DNA from: Dehalococcoidia bacterium
Lineage (GTDB): Bacteria > Chloroflexota > Dehalococcoidia > Lucifugimonadales > Lucifugimonadaceae
Direction of reading: 5' to 3'
Assembly (NCBI GenBank): GCA_009693115.1
Contig: SHXW01000021.1
Coordinates: forward strand, 1 to 39,571
Length of the DNA stretch: 39,571 nucleotides
Both the position numbers and the translations under genes were made by a program. Shown here one piece after another: positions 25,781-33,811 of this stretch (position 1 is the first letter of the stretch; the number at the start of each line of letters is the position of its first letter). The notes beneath the pieces were generated by a model. It searched no databases. It saw only the letters and a program-made list of their open reading frames with translations, and was not told the origin of the DNA.

Positions 25781-26998
25781 CTAACCGGCCGAGGACTTTG
25801 TTTCAGCCTCCACGTAGCCCTCAGCCAGCATGACGTTCAACACGTCGCCGGGCTGCGTGTCCTTCGCGCTGTGCAGCACAGGCCCGTCTTTGATGCGGAC
25901 TATGGCATAGCCGCGCTCGAGGATCTGCGATGGGCCCAGAGCATTAAGAGCGGTCATCTGAGTGAGGAGAGCGGCCCTCCTCGCGTCCATGACTCTGTCC
26001 GCTGAAACCTTCGCTGAACGCAGCAGGTCCTCGATGCGGCGGCGAGGCATCTCAATATCAGGCAGGCGGCTGTTCAGCCGGTCCCGAGCAAGTTCAAGCG
26101 ACGATCGCGCATCCCGCACGAGGCCCTCCAGTTCGTCTCCGAGCGTGCGGGCATCCGATGCCACCTGACGGGCCAGATCTGCCCTGTCAGGCGCAACTAT
26201 CTCCGCTGCTGCGGACGGAGTGGGCGCTCGTACGTCGGCCACGAAGTCAGCAATTGTGAAGTCAGTCTCATGGCCTATCGCGCTGATTACAGGGATGCGA
26301 CAGGCGAAGATCGCTCTGGCGACTGCCTCTTCATTGAACGGCCACAGGTCTTCAAGCGAACCTCCGCCGCGGGCGAGTATCGCCACGTCCAGTTCCGGTT
26401 CGGCGTTTACCGCGGCGAAGGCGCTCGCGATCCCTGCCGCCGCCGTTTCGCCCTGGACCACTGTGGGTACCAGGATGACCTCCACAAGAGGGTACCGCCG
26501 CCTGAGGACGTTCAATATGTCCTGGAACACAGCGCCCGTGGGAGAGGTGATGACCGCAACCCGCTGCGGGAACTTCGGCAGAGGCCGTTTGCGCGCTGCG
26601 TCGAAGAGGCCCTCCGCCTCAAGCCTCCGTTTCAATTCCTCGAATGCCTGCTGAAGCGCGCCCGCCCCCACAGGGCGCACAGACTGGACATACAGTTGCA
26701 CTTCGCCGCGGGCCGGGTAGAGCGATATGCGGCCGCGGGCGAGGATCTGTGCGCCGTCGTCCAGGTAGTTGGCTCCACGCCCAGGATGGAACATTACGCA
26801 ACGCAGGGTCGCGCTGGCATCCCGGAGGGCGAAGTAATGGTGCCCGGAACCGGGACGCCGGTAGCCGGAGATTTCGCCCGAGACAGAGATATCTGAGAGG
26901 ACAGGGTCTGCGTCCAGGGCTTCCTTCAGGTACGCGTTCGCCTGGGAGACCGTGAACACGGGCTCGCCGCGAATCATGCCGGGCTGCTGGAAGGACAA
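25781..26998 (-). CDS. xseA: Exodeoxyribonuclease VII large subunit
   Basis: Catalytic subunit of the single-strand-specific exonuclease VII. The 405-aa product has an N-terminal OB-fold (VSGEISGYRRPGSGHHYFALRD), the catalytic domain (VAVITSPTGAVFQDILNVLRRRYP, ARGGGSLEDLWPFNEE, AIGHETDFTIADFVADVRAPTPSAAAE), a coiled-coil segment, and a short C-terminal beta region with ILERGYAIV. The frame begins with TTG at 26996-26998 and GAGGCGG upstream; an ATG seven codons on (MIRGEPVFTVSQ) is an equally good family start. It is last in the aroQ-pepQ-efp-efp-xseA run. xseB was not found here. Confidence 0.95.
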   Translation of the reverse strand: MSFQQPGMIRGEPVFTVSQANAYLKEALDADPVLSDISVSGEISGYRRPGSGHHYFALRDASATLRCVMFHPGRGANYLDDGAQILARGRISLYPARGEVQLYVQSVRPVGAGALQQAFEELKRRLEAEGLFDAARKRPLPKFPQRVAVITSPTGAVFQDILNVLRRRYPLVEVILVPTVVQGETAAAGIASAFAAVNAEPELDVAILARGGGSLEDLWPFNEEAVARAIFACRIPVISAIGHETDFTIADFVADVRAPTPSAAAEIVAPDRADLARQVASDARTLGDELEGLVRDARSSLELARDRLNSRLPDIEMPRRRIEDLLRSAKVSADRVMDARRAALLTQMTALNALGPSQILERGYAIVRIKDGPVLHSAKDTQPGDVLNVMLAEGYVEAETKSSAG

Positions 26999-27218: not shown

Positions 27219-27782
27219 CTAATCGGCCCGGCCTGCGTACTGGCCAGTGCGTGTGTCCACGCGAATCTTGTCGCCGACGTTGAGGAATAGAGGCAGATTG
27301 AGCTTCAAGCCGGTATTTGTAACGGCGGGCTTGGTCGCACCGGAGGCTGTGTCGCCCTTGAAGCCCCGGTCGGTCTGGGCGATCTCCAGAGTGACGTTTG
27401 GTGGCAGATCGATGGCCAGAGGTTCGTCCCCGTACGTCAGCAGTTCGATCTTTTCGCCCTCAACCAGATAGAACGCATCTTCGCCCAGTTTTTCCTTCGA
27501 AATCTCGAACTGGTCGAACGTGGCCGTGTCCATGAAGGTGTAGCTGTCCGCGTCGCGGTACAGGTACTGCGCCGTCTTGCGTTCCGTATTGGCGGCCGTC
27601 AGTTTCTGGGAGGCGTTGAACTTCTTTTCAAGCACATTCCCTGTCTTCATGTGCCGCACCTTGAGCGTGAGGGTGGGAGGCGCCTTCGGTGCCGAACGGT
27701 GCGCCCATTCGAGGATCATGTAGACGTCCCCATCCAGCAGGATCGTCATGTTCTTGCGGACTTCGCCTGATGAAATAGTCAC
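27219..27782 (-). CDS. efp: Elongation factor P, copy 1
   Basis: EF-P enters the ribosomal E site and relieves stalling at proline runs. The 187-aa product has the KOW-like N-domain, the central OB domain (QYLYRDADSYTFMDTATFDQF) and the C-terminal OB domain (GFKGDTASGATKPAVTNTGLKLNLPLFLNVGDKIRVDTRTGQY). The functional lysine at the loop tip is retained as K33, but the surrounding sequence is SAPKAPP rather than the canonical PGKG. The start is GTG (27780-27782) with AAAGG 8 bases upstream. It is the second of two adjacent EF-P genes of equal length, 80 bases after copy 2. Confidence 0.95.
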   Translation of the reverse strand: MTISSGEVRKNMTILLDGDVYMILEWAHRSAPKAPPTLTLKVRHMKTGNVLEKKFNASQKLTAANTERKTAQYLYRDADSYTFMDTATFDQFEISKEKLGEDAFYLVEGEKIELLTYGDEPLAIDLPPNVTLEIAQTDRGFKGDTASGATKPAVTNTGLKLNLPLFLNVGDKIRVDTRTGQYAGRAD

Positions 27783-27862
27783 TTCGCCAGCCTTTGGAAA
27801 TTGTGTCCCGTCATCGCCCTGTGGTCCAGTTTGCTTAGCCCTGAGCGGATCGCAGCCCGTGT

Positions 27863-28426
27863 TCAGTCCGCCCGTTCAAGATATTCGGCTATCCGTGTGT
27901 CAACCCTTATCTTCTGACCTGCGTTGACAAAGAACGGCACCTGCAGCTTCAACCCGGTCTTGGTCACGGCCGGTTTCGTGTTGCCAGCCTGAGTGTCTCC
28001 CTTGAAGCTGGGTTCTGTGTCCATGACTTCGAGGACAACAGTGGTTGGGAGTTCGATAACGACTGGAGAACCATTGTAAAAGCGTACATCGCAGGAGCCG
28101 CCCTCGACAAGATAGTGCACCGCTTCAGTCACGATGTCGCCGGACACGCTGAACTGTTCGAAGCTCTGGGAATCCATGAGTACCATGTCCTCCCCGTCCC
28201 GGTAGAGATACTGACATGGGCGCAGTTCGGTCGGGGCGGCGACGAGCTTTATATTCGCGTTCCATGTACGTTCCAGCGAGCGCCCGGTCTTCAAGTTCTT
28301 GAGCTTGAGAGTCATCGTCGGAGCGGCTTTCGGCGCCTTCCTGTGCGTATATTCGATCACACGCCAGACCTCATTGTCCATGAGGATTGTCACGTTCCTG
28401 CGGAGTTCGCCCCAGCTGACAGTCAT
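27863..28426 (-). CDS. Elongation factor P, copy 2 (paralogue)
   Basis: A second 187-aa EF-P, alignable with copy 1 from end to end without gaps but clearly diverged (for example GELRRNVTILMDNEVWRVIEYTH against GEVRKNMTILLDGDVYMILEWAH). It keeps K33 in the tip KAPKAAP, the QYLYRDGEDMVLMDSQSFEQF line, and the C-terminal FKGDT...KPAVTKTGLKLQVPFFVNAGQKIRVDTR. Both domains are complete, so it should fold. The ATG has no clear Shine-Dalgarno. I cannot tell whether both copies do the same job or whether one serves a subset of stalling motifs. No epmA, epmB, earP or ymfI-like modification gene is in the window. Confidence 0.93.
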   Translation of the reverse strand: MTVSWGELRRNVTILMDNEVWRVIEYTHRKAPKAAPTMTLKLKNLKTGRSLERTWNANIKLVAAPTELRPCQYLYRDGEDMVLMDSQSFEQFSVSGDIVTEAVHYLVEGGSCDVRFYNGSPVVIELPTTVVLEVMDTEPSFKGDTQAGNTKPAVTKTGLKLQVPFFVNAGQKIRVDTRIAEYLERAD

Positions 28427-28542: not shown

Positions 28543-29640
28543 TTAGAACTTCATCCGCGGAGCCTTGCTCAAAACGCGCGCCCTGCCATTTTCGAGCACT
28601 ACCACGTCCTCTATGCGCACGCCACCCCAACCGGTGATGTATATGCCCGGTTCGATTGTAAACACCATGTTTTCCTGGAGTTTGCCAGGGCTGCTCGGGC
28701 CTACTCCGGGGCTTTCGTGTACTTCCAGCCCCACACCATGGCCCAGGGAATGGCCGAAGGCGTCACCATGCCCTGCCTCCTGTATGACCTTGCGGGCAAT
28801 GCCATCGCACTCCGCTCCCGTCATTCCCGGCCTCACCATTTCGATCGCGGCAAGCTGCGCCGCAAGGACAATGTCATAGACCTTCTTCGCCTGCGAGTCC
28901 GGCTTGCCCAGGACAACCGTGCGGGTGAGGTCGCTGCAGTAGCCCTGGTACCTGGCGCCCATGTCAATGACTATGGTTTGCCCTTCCCGCAGCACGTCGC
29001 TTCCGGCGCGGTGGTGTGGGCGGGCAGCGTTGGGGCCGCTACCGACAATTGTGTCGAACGAGATGGCCTCTGCGCCGCGTACGCGCACCGCCTGTTCTAT
29101 GCGCCAGGCAACCTCTTCTTCAGTCATCCCCGGGCTGAGCGTCTTCTCCACCTCTGCAAAGGCCTCATCCCCGATCTGTATGGCGCGGGACAGGAGGTTG
29201 ACTTCCTCCGCATCCTTGACGGCGCGCAGTCCAAGCGTGATGCCCTGCGTGGGCCTGAGTTGCGTGCCTGAAGGCAGGTCTTTGACATCCTTCATGGCCT
29301 CGTTGATACGGTCGAACTGGGCGACGGTGATGTGGTCCGCTTCAAACCCCACCTGCTTTGCACCGTGTTCAACGAAGAGCTTCGACATCCAGTCGAGCTT
29401 GCCGCCGATGCGGTCCACGCGGTAGCCCGGTGCCTGGAGGCCGGCCTGCTCCGTATATCGGAAGTCGGTGCAAAGCACTGCATTGGCCTTCGTCACGAAG
29501 AGCCATCCAGCCGTGCTGACGAAGCCAGACAGATAACGCCTGTTCTCTCCGCTGGAGATCAGGATGCCGTCAAGCTTTTCCTCTTCGATCTTTGCCCGCA
29601 AACGGTCGATCCGGTGCGGGTGTTTGAAATTCGCCGTCAT
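28543..29640 (-). CDS. pepQ: M24-family aminopeptidase (Xaa-Pro dipeptidase type)
   Basis: Metallopeptidase that cleaves the N-terminal residue before proline. The 365-aa product has a creatinase-like N-domain (about 1-125) and the pita-bread catalytic domain. The five metal ligands are visible in DMGARYQGYCSDLTRT (two Asp), GHSLGHGVGLEVHE (His), FTIEPGIY (Glu) and VRIEDVVVL (Glu). The ATG at 29638-29640 is preferred over an open extension to 29691, because the extension runs through a copy of the dispersed palindrome. It follows aroQ and precedes the two efp genes, a common order. An Xaa-Pro aminopeptidase (PepP) assignment is also possible. Confidence 0.9.
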   Translation of the reverse strand: MTANFKHPHRIDRLRAKIEEEKLDGILISSGENRRYLSGFVSTAGWLFVTKANAVLCTDFRYTEQAGLQAPGYRVDRIGGKLDWMSKLFVEHGAKQVGFEADHITVAQFDRINEAMKDVKDLPSGTQLRPTQGITLGLRAVKDAEEVNLLSRAIQIGDEAFAEVEKTLSPGMTEEEVAWRIEQAVRVRGAEAISFDTIVGSGPNAARPHHRAGSDVLREGQTIVIDMGARYQGYCSDLTRTVVLGKPDSQAKKVYDIVLAAQLAAIEMVRPGMTGAECDGIARKVIQEAGHGDAFGHSLGHGVGLEVHESPGVGPSSPGKLQENMVFTIEPGIYITGWGGVRIEDVVVLENGRARVLSKAPRMKF

Positions 29641-29776
29641 TTCTTGTCTCGCCTCCCCTCTCCCGTCGGAGAGGTCAGAGGGTGAGGGCATCTTGAACTG
29701 CGGCCCCGTCTCGCGTCAGGGGCGTCCCCGCAAAACGGGACGCCCCTGATTGAGCACGTCTGTCCAGCGCAATAGC

Positions 29777-30217
29777 TTATCCCGGTTTCACAGTGGCTGC
29801 GAGGAAGTCCAGCGCGTACAGGTAGCCGCGCCACCCGAGGCCCGCTATCTGTCCCTTCGCGAAGGCGGCAAAGACAGAGTGCCGCCTGAACTCCTCACGG
29901 GCGTGGATGTTTGAAAGGTGGACCTCTACGAAGGGCAGCTTCGCATCGAGGAGTGCGTCCAGTACCGAGTATCCAACGCCTGTGAGCGCGCCGCCGTTGA
30001 TGATGACGCCGTGCGCCCCTGCTGAGTTCGCCTGTACCCAGTCCACGACCGCGCCTTCGTGGTTGGACTGGAAGAACGCTACCCCGACGCCTAGCTCTCT
30101 GGCGCGCTTCGCGACTTCTTCTTCGATCTCAATGAGCGTCTTGCTGCCGTACTGGCCGGGGTCACGCCTGCCCAGATTGTTCAGGTTGGGTCCGTTGATG
30201 ACAAGGATTTTGGTCAT
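29777..30217 (-). CDS. aroQ: 3-dehydroquinate dehydratase, type II
   Basis: Shikimate-pathway enzyme converting 3-dehydroquinate to 3-dehydroshikimate, normally a dodecamer. The 146-aa length is typical. The N-terminal NGPNLNNLGRRDPGQYG carries the lid Arg (17/18) and catalytic Tyr23; QSNHEGAVVDW, N74, the catalytic His100 in VEVHLSNIHAREEF and R111/R112 are present. One departure: the usual INPGAYTHTS reads INGGALTGVG, so the His after Thr that lines the active site is Gly80. The gene precedes pepQ. Confidence 0.93.
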   Translation of the reverse strand: MTKILVINGPNLNNLGRRDPGQYGSKTLIEIEEEVAKRARELGVGVAFFQSNHEGAVVDWVQANSAGAHGVIINGGALTGVGYSVLDALLDAKLPFVEVHLSNIHAREEFRRHSVFAAFAKGQIAGLGWRGYLYALDFLAATVKPG

Positions 30218-31387: not shown

Positions 31388-33811
31388 CTATACCGGCACA
31401 GGCGAAAGTTCGTCTTCGGCGCGGGAAGACGCCCGCTCCGGCGCGCCCTCTTCCGTTGCACCTTCCACCTGTTCGTGTACGCCCGAGTACTGACACTGTG
31501 TGCATCGCACACGGTTCCGTCCCGCAGAAATCAGCAGGCCCTCGCACTGAGGGCAAGGCTCCTTTTGAGGCCGTTGGCCCACCAGGAAGTCGCAGTTCGG
31601 GTAGCGGTTGCAGCCCCAGAAGGCGTTGCCTCGCTTGTTCTTGCGCCCGACAAGTTCTCCTTCGCCGCACTTCGGGCACTTGATGCCCGTGGGTGCCTGT
31701 ATAGGCTTGGCGTTCTTGCACTCGGGGAAGCCAGAGCAGGACAGGAACTTGCCGAAGCGGCCGGACCGGATGACCATCTTCCGCTCGCACTTCTCGCAAA
31801 CCTGATCGGTCTCTTCGACGAGCGCCTCCCACGGCACCCGCGGTGCGAGTTTCGCCGCCTCCAGCTTGATCTGGAAGGGTCCGAAGAACTCTTTCAGCAC
31901 TGGCACCCATTCGGCATTGCCTTCGGCGATGGCGTCGAGTTTTGACTCCATGGCGGCGGTGAAGCCAGGATCCATGACATCAGGGAAGTTGACCGTCAGC
32001 AGGTCACATACGGCGAACCCGAGCTTCGTGGGCCTGAAGCGCGCCTTCTCACGGGTGACGTAGTCCCGTTCTGCGATTGTGCCCACGATGCTGGCGTAAG
32101 TGCTAGGCCTGCCGATGCCCTTTTCCTCCAGAGTACGAATCAGCATGGCTTCCGAGAACCGGGCTGGAGGCTGGGTAAACTTCTGGTCCGAGTTGACATT
32201 GCCCAGGTCCAGCGGCTCTTGCGCCGCGAGTGGCGGCAGCTCGCGTGAGTCGTCCTCATCGTCCTTTTCGTCTTGCTCTTTGCTCTCCATGTAGAGCGCC
32301 CGGAACCCCGGGAAGCGCATGACCGATCCCGTCGCCCTGACGGTGTACTTGCGGCCGTGCGGGGCCGCAGCGGCGATGTCCGCGGTGGTCTGATCCGTGA
32401 CAGCGTCCGGCATCTGACTGGCAACCATCCGCTTCCAGATCAGTTCGTACACCCTGCGCTGGTCCGGGTTCAGGAATTGAGCGACGCTATCGGGCGTCCG
32501 CAAGACGGACGTCGGGCGGACGGCCTCATGCGCCTCCTGTGCGTTGGCGGACTTTGTCTTATAGATGCGGTGCTTGTGGGCGTACCCCGATCCCCAACGC
32601 TGCTTGATGTAATCGTGCGCCTCGTGGAGTGCAGACTCAGCCAGGTTCGTCGAGTCTGTACGCATGTACGTGATCAGGCCAACAGGCTCCCCGCCGCCTA
32701 TCTGGACTCCCTCATAAAGCTCCTGGGCTATGCGCATGGTGCGCTGTGCCGTCATCCTGAACGACCGCGCCGCCTCCTGCTGGAGCGTGCTGGTGGTGAA
32801 GGGCGGCTGCGGGCGCTGGTGGGCCTCCCGCTGTTTTACATCTCCGACCACATAGGTCGAAGCTTCAAGGTCCGCCTTGATGCGGCCTGCGATCTCCCCA
32901 TTCGGGACGCTCGCCTTGCCCTTCTCGCCATCAATGGTCTGCAAAGTCGCTTTGAAACGACGTATCCGAACTGTGGGGCCACCGTCGCCTGGGGGAACCG
33001 CAGCCATGCCTGGTTGCTTATCGAGTTCGACTGAGACTACCCAGTACTCCTCCGGCTTGAACGCCTCGATCTCGCGTTCACGCTCGACGATGAGGCGTAG
33101 AGCTACGGACTGGACGCGCCCTGCTGAGAGACCACGGCGGACCTTTGACCAGAGTATGGGGCTGAGTTCGTAGCCCACTATACGATCCAAGACGCGCCGG
33201 GCCTGCTGCGCGTTTACCAACCGCATGTCTATTTCGCGCGGGTGGTTGAAGGCGTCCTCAATGGCTGGCCTCGTGATCTCGTGAAAAACGACTCTCTTGA
33301 GGTCTCTGCCATCGCGGGCCAGATTCGCGGCCTCGACAAGATGCCAGGAGATGGCCTCGCCCTCGCGGTCGGGGTCAGTCGCCAGTATGACCGCGCTAGC
33401 TCCGGCCGCGGCGTCCTCGATTTCACCGATGAGTTGCTTGCGCCCGTCGGCGTTTACATATTCAGGCAGGAAGTCATTCTCCATGTCCACTCCCATTCTG
33501 TGCGGAGGGAGGTCTCGGACATGGCCCATTGATGCCATGACGATGTAGGCATCGCCCAGGAACCGGCCTACCGTCCGCGCCTTGGCAGGAGACTCGACTA
33601 TGACAAGGCTCTTCCCGCTCATCTGGATTTTTGCAGTGCGCGTGGATTTCTTTACTTCAGATTTGTTTTCCGCCGCGGAGGTTTTTGCCGCCCGCGAACT
33701 CTTCACCGCCGCCGGACTTTTCTTCACCGCCGGGGTCTTTTTTGCCGCTGGGACCTTCTTTGTCGCCGGGGCTTTTTTTGTTGCTGGAGTTTTTTTTATT
33801 GCTGGTGACAT
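31388..33811 (-). CDS. topA: DNA topoisomerase I with basic N-terminal tail
   Basis: Type IA topoisomerase that relaxes negative supercoils. The 807-aa product begins with about 63 residues rich in Lys, Ala and Pro in KKTPA/KKAPA-like repeats. The Toprim domain follows (LVIVESPAKARTVGRFLG) and then the catalytic region with the active Tyr in GLITYMRTDSTNLAE. Three C-terminal four-cysteine zinc ribbons (CEKC...CSGFPEC, CPKC...CNRYPNC, CPQC...CTQC) complete the protein. M64 (MSGKSLVIVE) is where most TopA proteins start. The repeat-rich tail is in frame, coding-like and preceded by its own ATG, so I keep it. Lys-rich tails are better known at the C-terminus of actinobacterial TopA. Confidence 0.95.
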   Translation of the reverse strand: MSPAIKKTPATKKAPATKKVPAAKKTPAVKKSPAAVKSSRAAKTSAAENKSEVKKSTRTAKIQMSGKSLVIVESPAKARTVGRFLGDAYIVMASMGHVRDLPPHRMGVDMENDFLPEYVNADGRKQLIGEIEDAAAGASAVILATDPDREGEAISWHLVEAANLARDGRDLKRVVFHEITRPAIEDAFNHPREIDMRLVNAQQARRVLDRIVGYELSPILWSKVRRGLSAGRVQSVALRLIVEREREIEAFKPEEYWVVSVELDKQPGMAAVPPGDGGPTVRIRRFKATLQTIDGEKGKASVPNGEIAGRIKADLEASTYVVGDVKQREAHQRPQPPFTTSTLQQEAARSFRMTAQRTMRIAQELYEGVQIGGGEPVGLITYMRTDSTNLAESALHEAHDYIKQRWGSGYAHKHRIYKTKSANAQEAHEAVRPTSVLRTPDSVAQFLNPDQRRVYELIWKRMVASQMPDAVTDQTTADIAAAAPHGRKYTVRATGSVMRFPGFRALYMESKEQDEKDDEDDSRELPPLAAQEPLDLGNVNSDQKFTQPPARFSEAMLIRTLEEKGIGRPSTYASIVGTIAERDYVTREKARFRPTKLGFAVCDLLTVNFPDVMDPGFTAAMESKLDAIAEGNAEWVPVLKEFFGPFQIKLEAAKLAPRVPWEALVEETDQVCEKCERKMVIRSGRFGKFLSCSGFPECKNAKPIQAPTGIKCPKCGEGELVGRKNKRGNAFWGCNRYPNCDFLVGQRPQKEPCPQCEGLLISAGRNRVRCTQCQYSGVHEQVEGATEEGAPERASSRAEDELSPVPV

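Follow-up and report, generated by a model that had tools for sequence, protein, structure and literature searches.

Tandem EF-P genes with an APKA loop tip in a SAR202 genome: a family-wide tip and a second copy known from one genome

The chemistry of the EF-P loop has already been worked out for PGKG lysine loops, for arginine loops with EarP and for proline-stiffened actinobacterial loops. Pinheiro et al. 2020 (Cell Rep 30:4332) are said to have described an actinobacterial EF-P subfamily whose PGKGP loop is active unmodified. In E. coli EF-P, function is lost with the substitutions P32S/G and G33A/S and falls to 3.8% with G35N, and among 1,166 sequences proline at position 32 goes with nearly all lysine tips (PMC6544042). 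Loop stiffening and loop extension are given as two ways to EF-P activity without modification (PMC11611912), and the passage of that paper that cites Pinheiro 2020 says that altering the loop can 'increase stiffness' and make unmodified EF-P functional. Two EF-Ps per genome are not rare: they were counted in 29 of 1,137 genomes with YeiP/EfpL excluded (PMC6544042) and in 660 of 4,777 with EfpL included (PMC11611912), and in Geobacter one of the two matters under a particular growth condition (PMC5585712).

The window, a stretch of 39,571 nucleotides, belongs to a SAR202/Dehalococcoidia family that includes the cultured Candidatus Lucifugimonas marina, whose cultivation was reported in PMC10444878. 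Two EF-P genes of 187 amino acids each lie in it on the minus strand: efp-1, the downstream copy with a GTG start (27219..27782), and efp-2, the upstream copy with an ATG start (27863..28426). They are separated by a spacer of exactly 80 bp (27783..27862, minus strand), in which neither a terminator-like site on the genes' strand nor a sigma-70-type promoter match was found; scanning for promoters and terminators yielded no match beyond chance level. Pairwise alignment gave 51% identity and 71% positives, gap-free over 187 residues. Both copies contain all three EF-P Pfam domains (KOW-like, OB and C-terminal), and the two scored 204.2 and 207.4 bits in a profile search with TIGR00038, above the EF-P equivalog cut-off of 185.8 bits. 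Coordinates, alignment and domain matches agree with the preliminary description of two full-length, gap-free alignable EF-P genes 80 bases apart, and by gene identity both are true EF-Ps. No other EF-P gene is present in the source genome (2.02 Mb, 95.6% complete). An assembly artefact was ruled out by the 51% identity of the copies and by the location of both on a single contig, with conserved neighbours on either side. Transfer from elsewhere was unsupported: GC3 of efp-2 (0.70) is near that of the neighbours (0.73-0.77), and the family-derived residues N11, R29, P32, K33 and A34 occur in both copies. As with the paralogue EfpL/YeiP, which has an extended R-tip loop, efp-2 is a second EF-P-type protein in one genome; unlike EfpL, its loop is unextended and carries lysine, and EfpL identity was ruled out for both copies by loop length and by scores of 132.0 bits (efp-1) and 117.9 bits (efp-2) against a cut-off of 216.

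The loop between strands 3 and 4 (residues 28-37) reads HRSAPKAPPT in efp-1 (27672..27701, minus strand; K33 codon 27684-27686) and HRKAPKAAPT in efp-2 (28316..28345, minus strand; K33 codon 28328-28330). In both copies K33 is aligned to the lysine at the tip of solved EF-Ps ('hvkpgkgaaf' in 1yby against 'hrsapkappt' and 'hrkapkaapt'), confirming that the lysine is kept and that an APKA tip replaces PGKG. The replacement of the flanking glycines by proline and alanine, which had been pointed out before, also held, and the change goes further: relative to canonical P-G-K-G, both copies show P31 to A, G32 to P and G34 to A, giving A31-P32-K33-A34, so that the proline two before the lysine is replaced as well. 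The prerequisite of the EpmA-modified lysine type (proline two before the tip lysine, glycine on both sides) is therefore absent from both copies; neither has the arginine tip of the EarP-modified type, and neither has the PGKGP loop of the unmodified actinobacterial type, the loops being APKAPP or APKAAP. The pair resembles E. coli Efp (KPGKGQA, EpmA/EpmB-modified) in its three domains, seven-residue loop, lysine tip and TIGR00038 match, whereas it differs in the APKAPP loop with P31 and both glycines replaced, in that EpmA was not found, and in being nested among Q-tip EF-Ps.

The tip HR-x-[AP]PKAPPT occurred in every EF-P examined from the window's family, Ca. L. marina included, with P32, the lysine, A34 and P36 invariant, and the [AP]PKAPP tip was found in none of the other families examined. 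A degenerate DNA pattern for H-R-x-[AP]-P-K-A-[AP]-P-T matched 3 of 301 genomes drawn evenly across the phylum, all three from the window's family, which indicates that the tip is not a matter of chance. Searching the GTDB species genomes with an alignment of the family as query returned 71 loci, all Chloroflexota/Dehalococcoidia/SAR202, a result in which the tip was one of two search patterns and which cannot by itself show absence elsewhere; efp-2 alone as query had given no match in the first genome scan. Among the 71 is Candidatus Lucifugimonas marina JH1073 (L085, CP046147.1), with EF-P at 560524-561084; genome G011, a member of the window's family, has EF-P at identical coordinates and is evidently the same genome. 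EF-Ps of other families in the same order have the loop KMQQRAP (Q tip), with a few K or G tips; in the rest of the class K-x-GRGSA (R tip) predominates, alongside AQRAA variants and some loops one residue shorter, and other classes of the phylum have GRG, PGNWRA or PGKG. The APKA tip is a family-wide trait that is independent of the duplication. The preliminary description had allowed that APKA tips might prove widespread and already assigned to a known modification; among the genomes examined they occurred in one family only, and our literature search found no paper assigning the APKA tip to a known modification and none on SAR202 or Chloroflexota EF-P loops.

Further loop types were seen in the course of these comparisons. 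Loops one residue short (L211, L214, L237 and L254; KMKR-TA, KM-KHTA, KTKK-SA) form a length class outside the usual description of a seven-residue loop. Some Dehalococcoidia (L214, L215, L217, L235 and L236, and the related genomes G262, G297, G343, G345 and G464) encode two unlinked EF-Ps that differ strongly from each other. The loop of one is shortened or R-tipped (e.g. KM-KHTA); the other shows lower similarity and, in the two cases in which it was read (L235, L236), belongs to the PGKGR type. In certain genomes of the class (e.g. G315) a PGKGR-type EF-P was the only one recovered.

In a maximum-likelihood tree of 82 EF-Ps from which loop residues 28-37 were left out, all 34 APKA rows formed one clade with 100/99 support, and all bootstrap trees gave a single origin of the tip. 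This supports the suggestion that such EF-Ps form a subfamily apart, here recognisable by its tip. The APKA clade groups with the SAR202 Q-tip (MQQRAP) EF-Ps with support 99 in a 164-row tree, and in the tree without the loop it is nested within the glutamine-tip clade, which suggests that lysine was re-acquired in a loop without Pro-Gly-Lys-Gly. The simplest reading of the tree is a tip order from R through Q to K. The Q-tip EF-Ps of other SAR202 families and the R-tip (GRGSA) EF-Ps of Dehalococcoidia are closest in the tree and have the same loop length; unlike the APKA loops, their tip is Q or R and they lack prolines at 32 or 35.

We put at roughly one in two the probability that both copies are working EF-Ps in which a proline-stiffened loop presents an unmodified lysine, by analogy with the actinobacterial PGKGP EF-Ps. 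Both would enter stalled ribosomes beside the P site, where the lysine-tipped loop would reach the peptidyl-transferase centre and relieve proline stalls. The loop would have been rebuilt in the SAR202 family from a glutamine-tip ancestor to [AP]P-K-A-[AP]-P, and the second gene would have arisen by tandem duplication in place, followed by about twofold faster divergence, giving what is probably an extra EF-P that differs in substrate preference or in expression. The ribosomal action is inferred from the EF-P family, and the stiffness, the lack of modification and the role of the second copy are likewise inferences. The likeness to the actinobacterial subfamily lies in a proline-rich loop around an apparently unmodified lysine and in the best structural match of the efp-2 model. 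On the other hand, the loops described here have no glycines and the lineage is unrelated, and the two would be convergent if the mechanism is the same.

The duplication itself is restricted. EF-P was present as one copy each in 72 of 75 other family genomes, the remaining three, which are incomplete, giving no EF-P match, and each of the 71 named loci carries just one EF-P; genome G022 has one EF-P gene and a fragment at a contig end. The gene order topA-xerC-aroQ-pepP-efp-xseA is found wherever the contig allows and is complete in 44 loci. The window's pair sits exactly where other family genomes have the single efp, between genes that we take to be pepP-like (an Xaa-Pro peptidase, 28543..29691, minus strand, upstream of the pair) and xseA-like (25781..26998, minus strand, downstream), with an aroQ-like gene at 29777..30217 (minus strand), all three being conserved neighbours. 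The topA-like gene (31388-33811, minus strand) has a repetitive N-terminal tail of about 60 residues rich in Lys, Pro and Ala. Among the genomes searched, which represent other genera of the family, the second copy is known from the source genome alone; the duplication may be genus-wide. The idea of the pair as a conserved feature was thus not borne out: each of the other EF-P-bearing family genomes has only one gene at this position, and by the criterion set beforehand, that every relative should lack one of the copies, the duplication does not count as a conserved trait.

The age of the second copy admits another reading, in which efp-2 is no recent genus-level copy but an ancient paralogue: its split would predate the diversification of the family, and every other lineage would have lost it. 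Identity to the nearest family EF-Ps is 57-60% for efp-1 and up to about 51% for efp-2, and in the 82-row tree the end branches are 0.41 for efp-1 and 0.94 for efp-2, the longest in the family; judged by divergence, efp-2 evolves about twice as fast as efp-1. Several family-derived residues are missing from efp-2, and at five such sites (L8, Y26, A35, R49 and T54) it has the state of the sister group, which hints at an older split. AU tests rejected neither a tree in which the rest of the family EF-Ps group without efp-2 (p = 0.365) nor one in which efp-1 joins the main family group and efp-2 does not (p = 0.33). Against this, the best tree joins efp-1 and efp-2, albeit weakly (88/43 in the 82-row tree), and the two have in common 10 residues seldom seen in the family, a number that reaches no more than six for any other member, although about half of these residues are probably ancestral states. 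An old paralogue would also require many independent losses. We therefore regard this history as possible but somewhat doubtful, and duplication in place remains our reading of the pair.

The preliminary description had left it between a modification of its own and none. No stand-alone EpmA (GenX) was found above cut-off in any of 25 genomes, only full-length synthetases matching below it, with two control genomes above it; deoxyhypusine synthase (DHS) was found in 0 of 25, with the control positive in seven genomes; and in the YmfI search of the family no match exceeded the NCBIfam cut-off of 238, the best in the source genome reaching 208.2 bits, with the control positive. The matches below the YmfI cut-off are probably FabG-like reductases. 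EarP was likewise found in 0 of 25 genomes, a count for which no control genome gave a match either, and it would in any case not be expected because the tip is lysine. These searches favour the second alternative as regards EpmA, DHS and YmfI, and the adjoining genes are housekeeping ones with no candidate enzyme among them. The SAR202 loop breaks the rules derived from E. coli (PMC6544042) and yet is fixed in the family, which presumably means a different mode of action; prolines at 32, 35 and 36 would fit loop stiffening, and modification-free stiff loops have precedent. Still, a lysine-tip loop without the residues essential in E. coli might need another partner or modification, and a modification enzyme that is novel or evolves fast could escape homology searches. 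K33 could be modified by a not-yet-known enzyme specific for the APKA loop: lysine-tip EF-Ps are modified in many studied bacteria, E. coli EF-P requires the glycine that precedes the lysine (PMC6544042), and the residues invariant in the family (the lysine, P32, A34 and P36) would suit an enzyme recognition site. With none of the three enzymes found, we consider such a modification unlikely and keep to an unmodified lysine.

Whether efp-2 works was judged from its conservation and predicted fold. Of 24 columns with at least 90% conservation in the other Chloroflexota EF-Ps, it keeps 21 and efp-1 keeps 22, and of the 40 family-conserved columns it has lost 11, against three lost in efp-1. Its predicted fold has a pLDDT of 85.8, in a low-resolution model that is uninformative on loop stiffness, and among solved EF-Ps the best TM-score is 0.92, with the actinobacterial C. 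glutamicum EF-P (6s8z). This pattern, from a single genome, suits a working EF-P with altered specifics, although the 11 lost positions could mean that efp-2 is weakened. Alternatively, efp-2 could be heading to loss of function or merely raising dosage, with no division of labour. Its occurrence in one genome and its long end branch are in keeping with that, and tandem copies can decay: in the SAR202 genome G132 (L216, G132:C31), a short piece downstream of a full Q-tip EF-P, at about 1172-1291, matches the EF-P C-terminus only, with a second match of 10 residues at 476-505, and is likely the remnant of a tandem duplicate. The intact reading frame of efp-2, its GC3 near that of its neighbours, the retained pan-EF-P columns and the confidently predicted EF-P fold speak against decay, which we hold to be rather improbable; a second working EF-P is the reading we prefer, and the division of labour suggested earlier may or may not apply to the two.

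A diproline, APPT, lies within the loop of 32 of 32 other family EF-Ps compared, and is itself a potential stall motif. The efp-1 product has two PP motifs (APPT and LPPN) and that of efp-2 none, so that EF-P might be a client of itself and efp-2 independent. A bolder combined reading seems very unlikely: the family would have re-invented the lysine tip on a glutamine-tip background, in a modification-free proline cage under rules opposite to those of E. coli, and in this genome the pair may form a self-feeding circuit, efp-1 perhaps needing EF-P for its own synthesis and PP-free efp-2 supporting efp-1 translation.

A family in which an [AP]PKAPP loop is fixed, derived from Q-tip and R-tip relatives and unaccompanied by any known modification enzyme, would demonstrate that lysine tips can re-evolve under other rules. 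Ca. L. marina, being in culture, makes this testable. Across the Dehalococcoidia, the tips (R, Q, K and shortened) would form a natural series on the loop features that give independence from modification.
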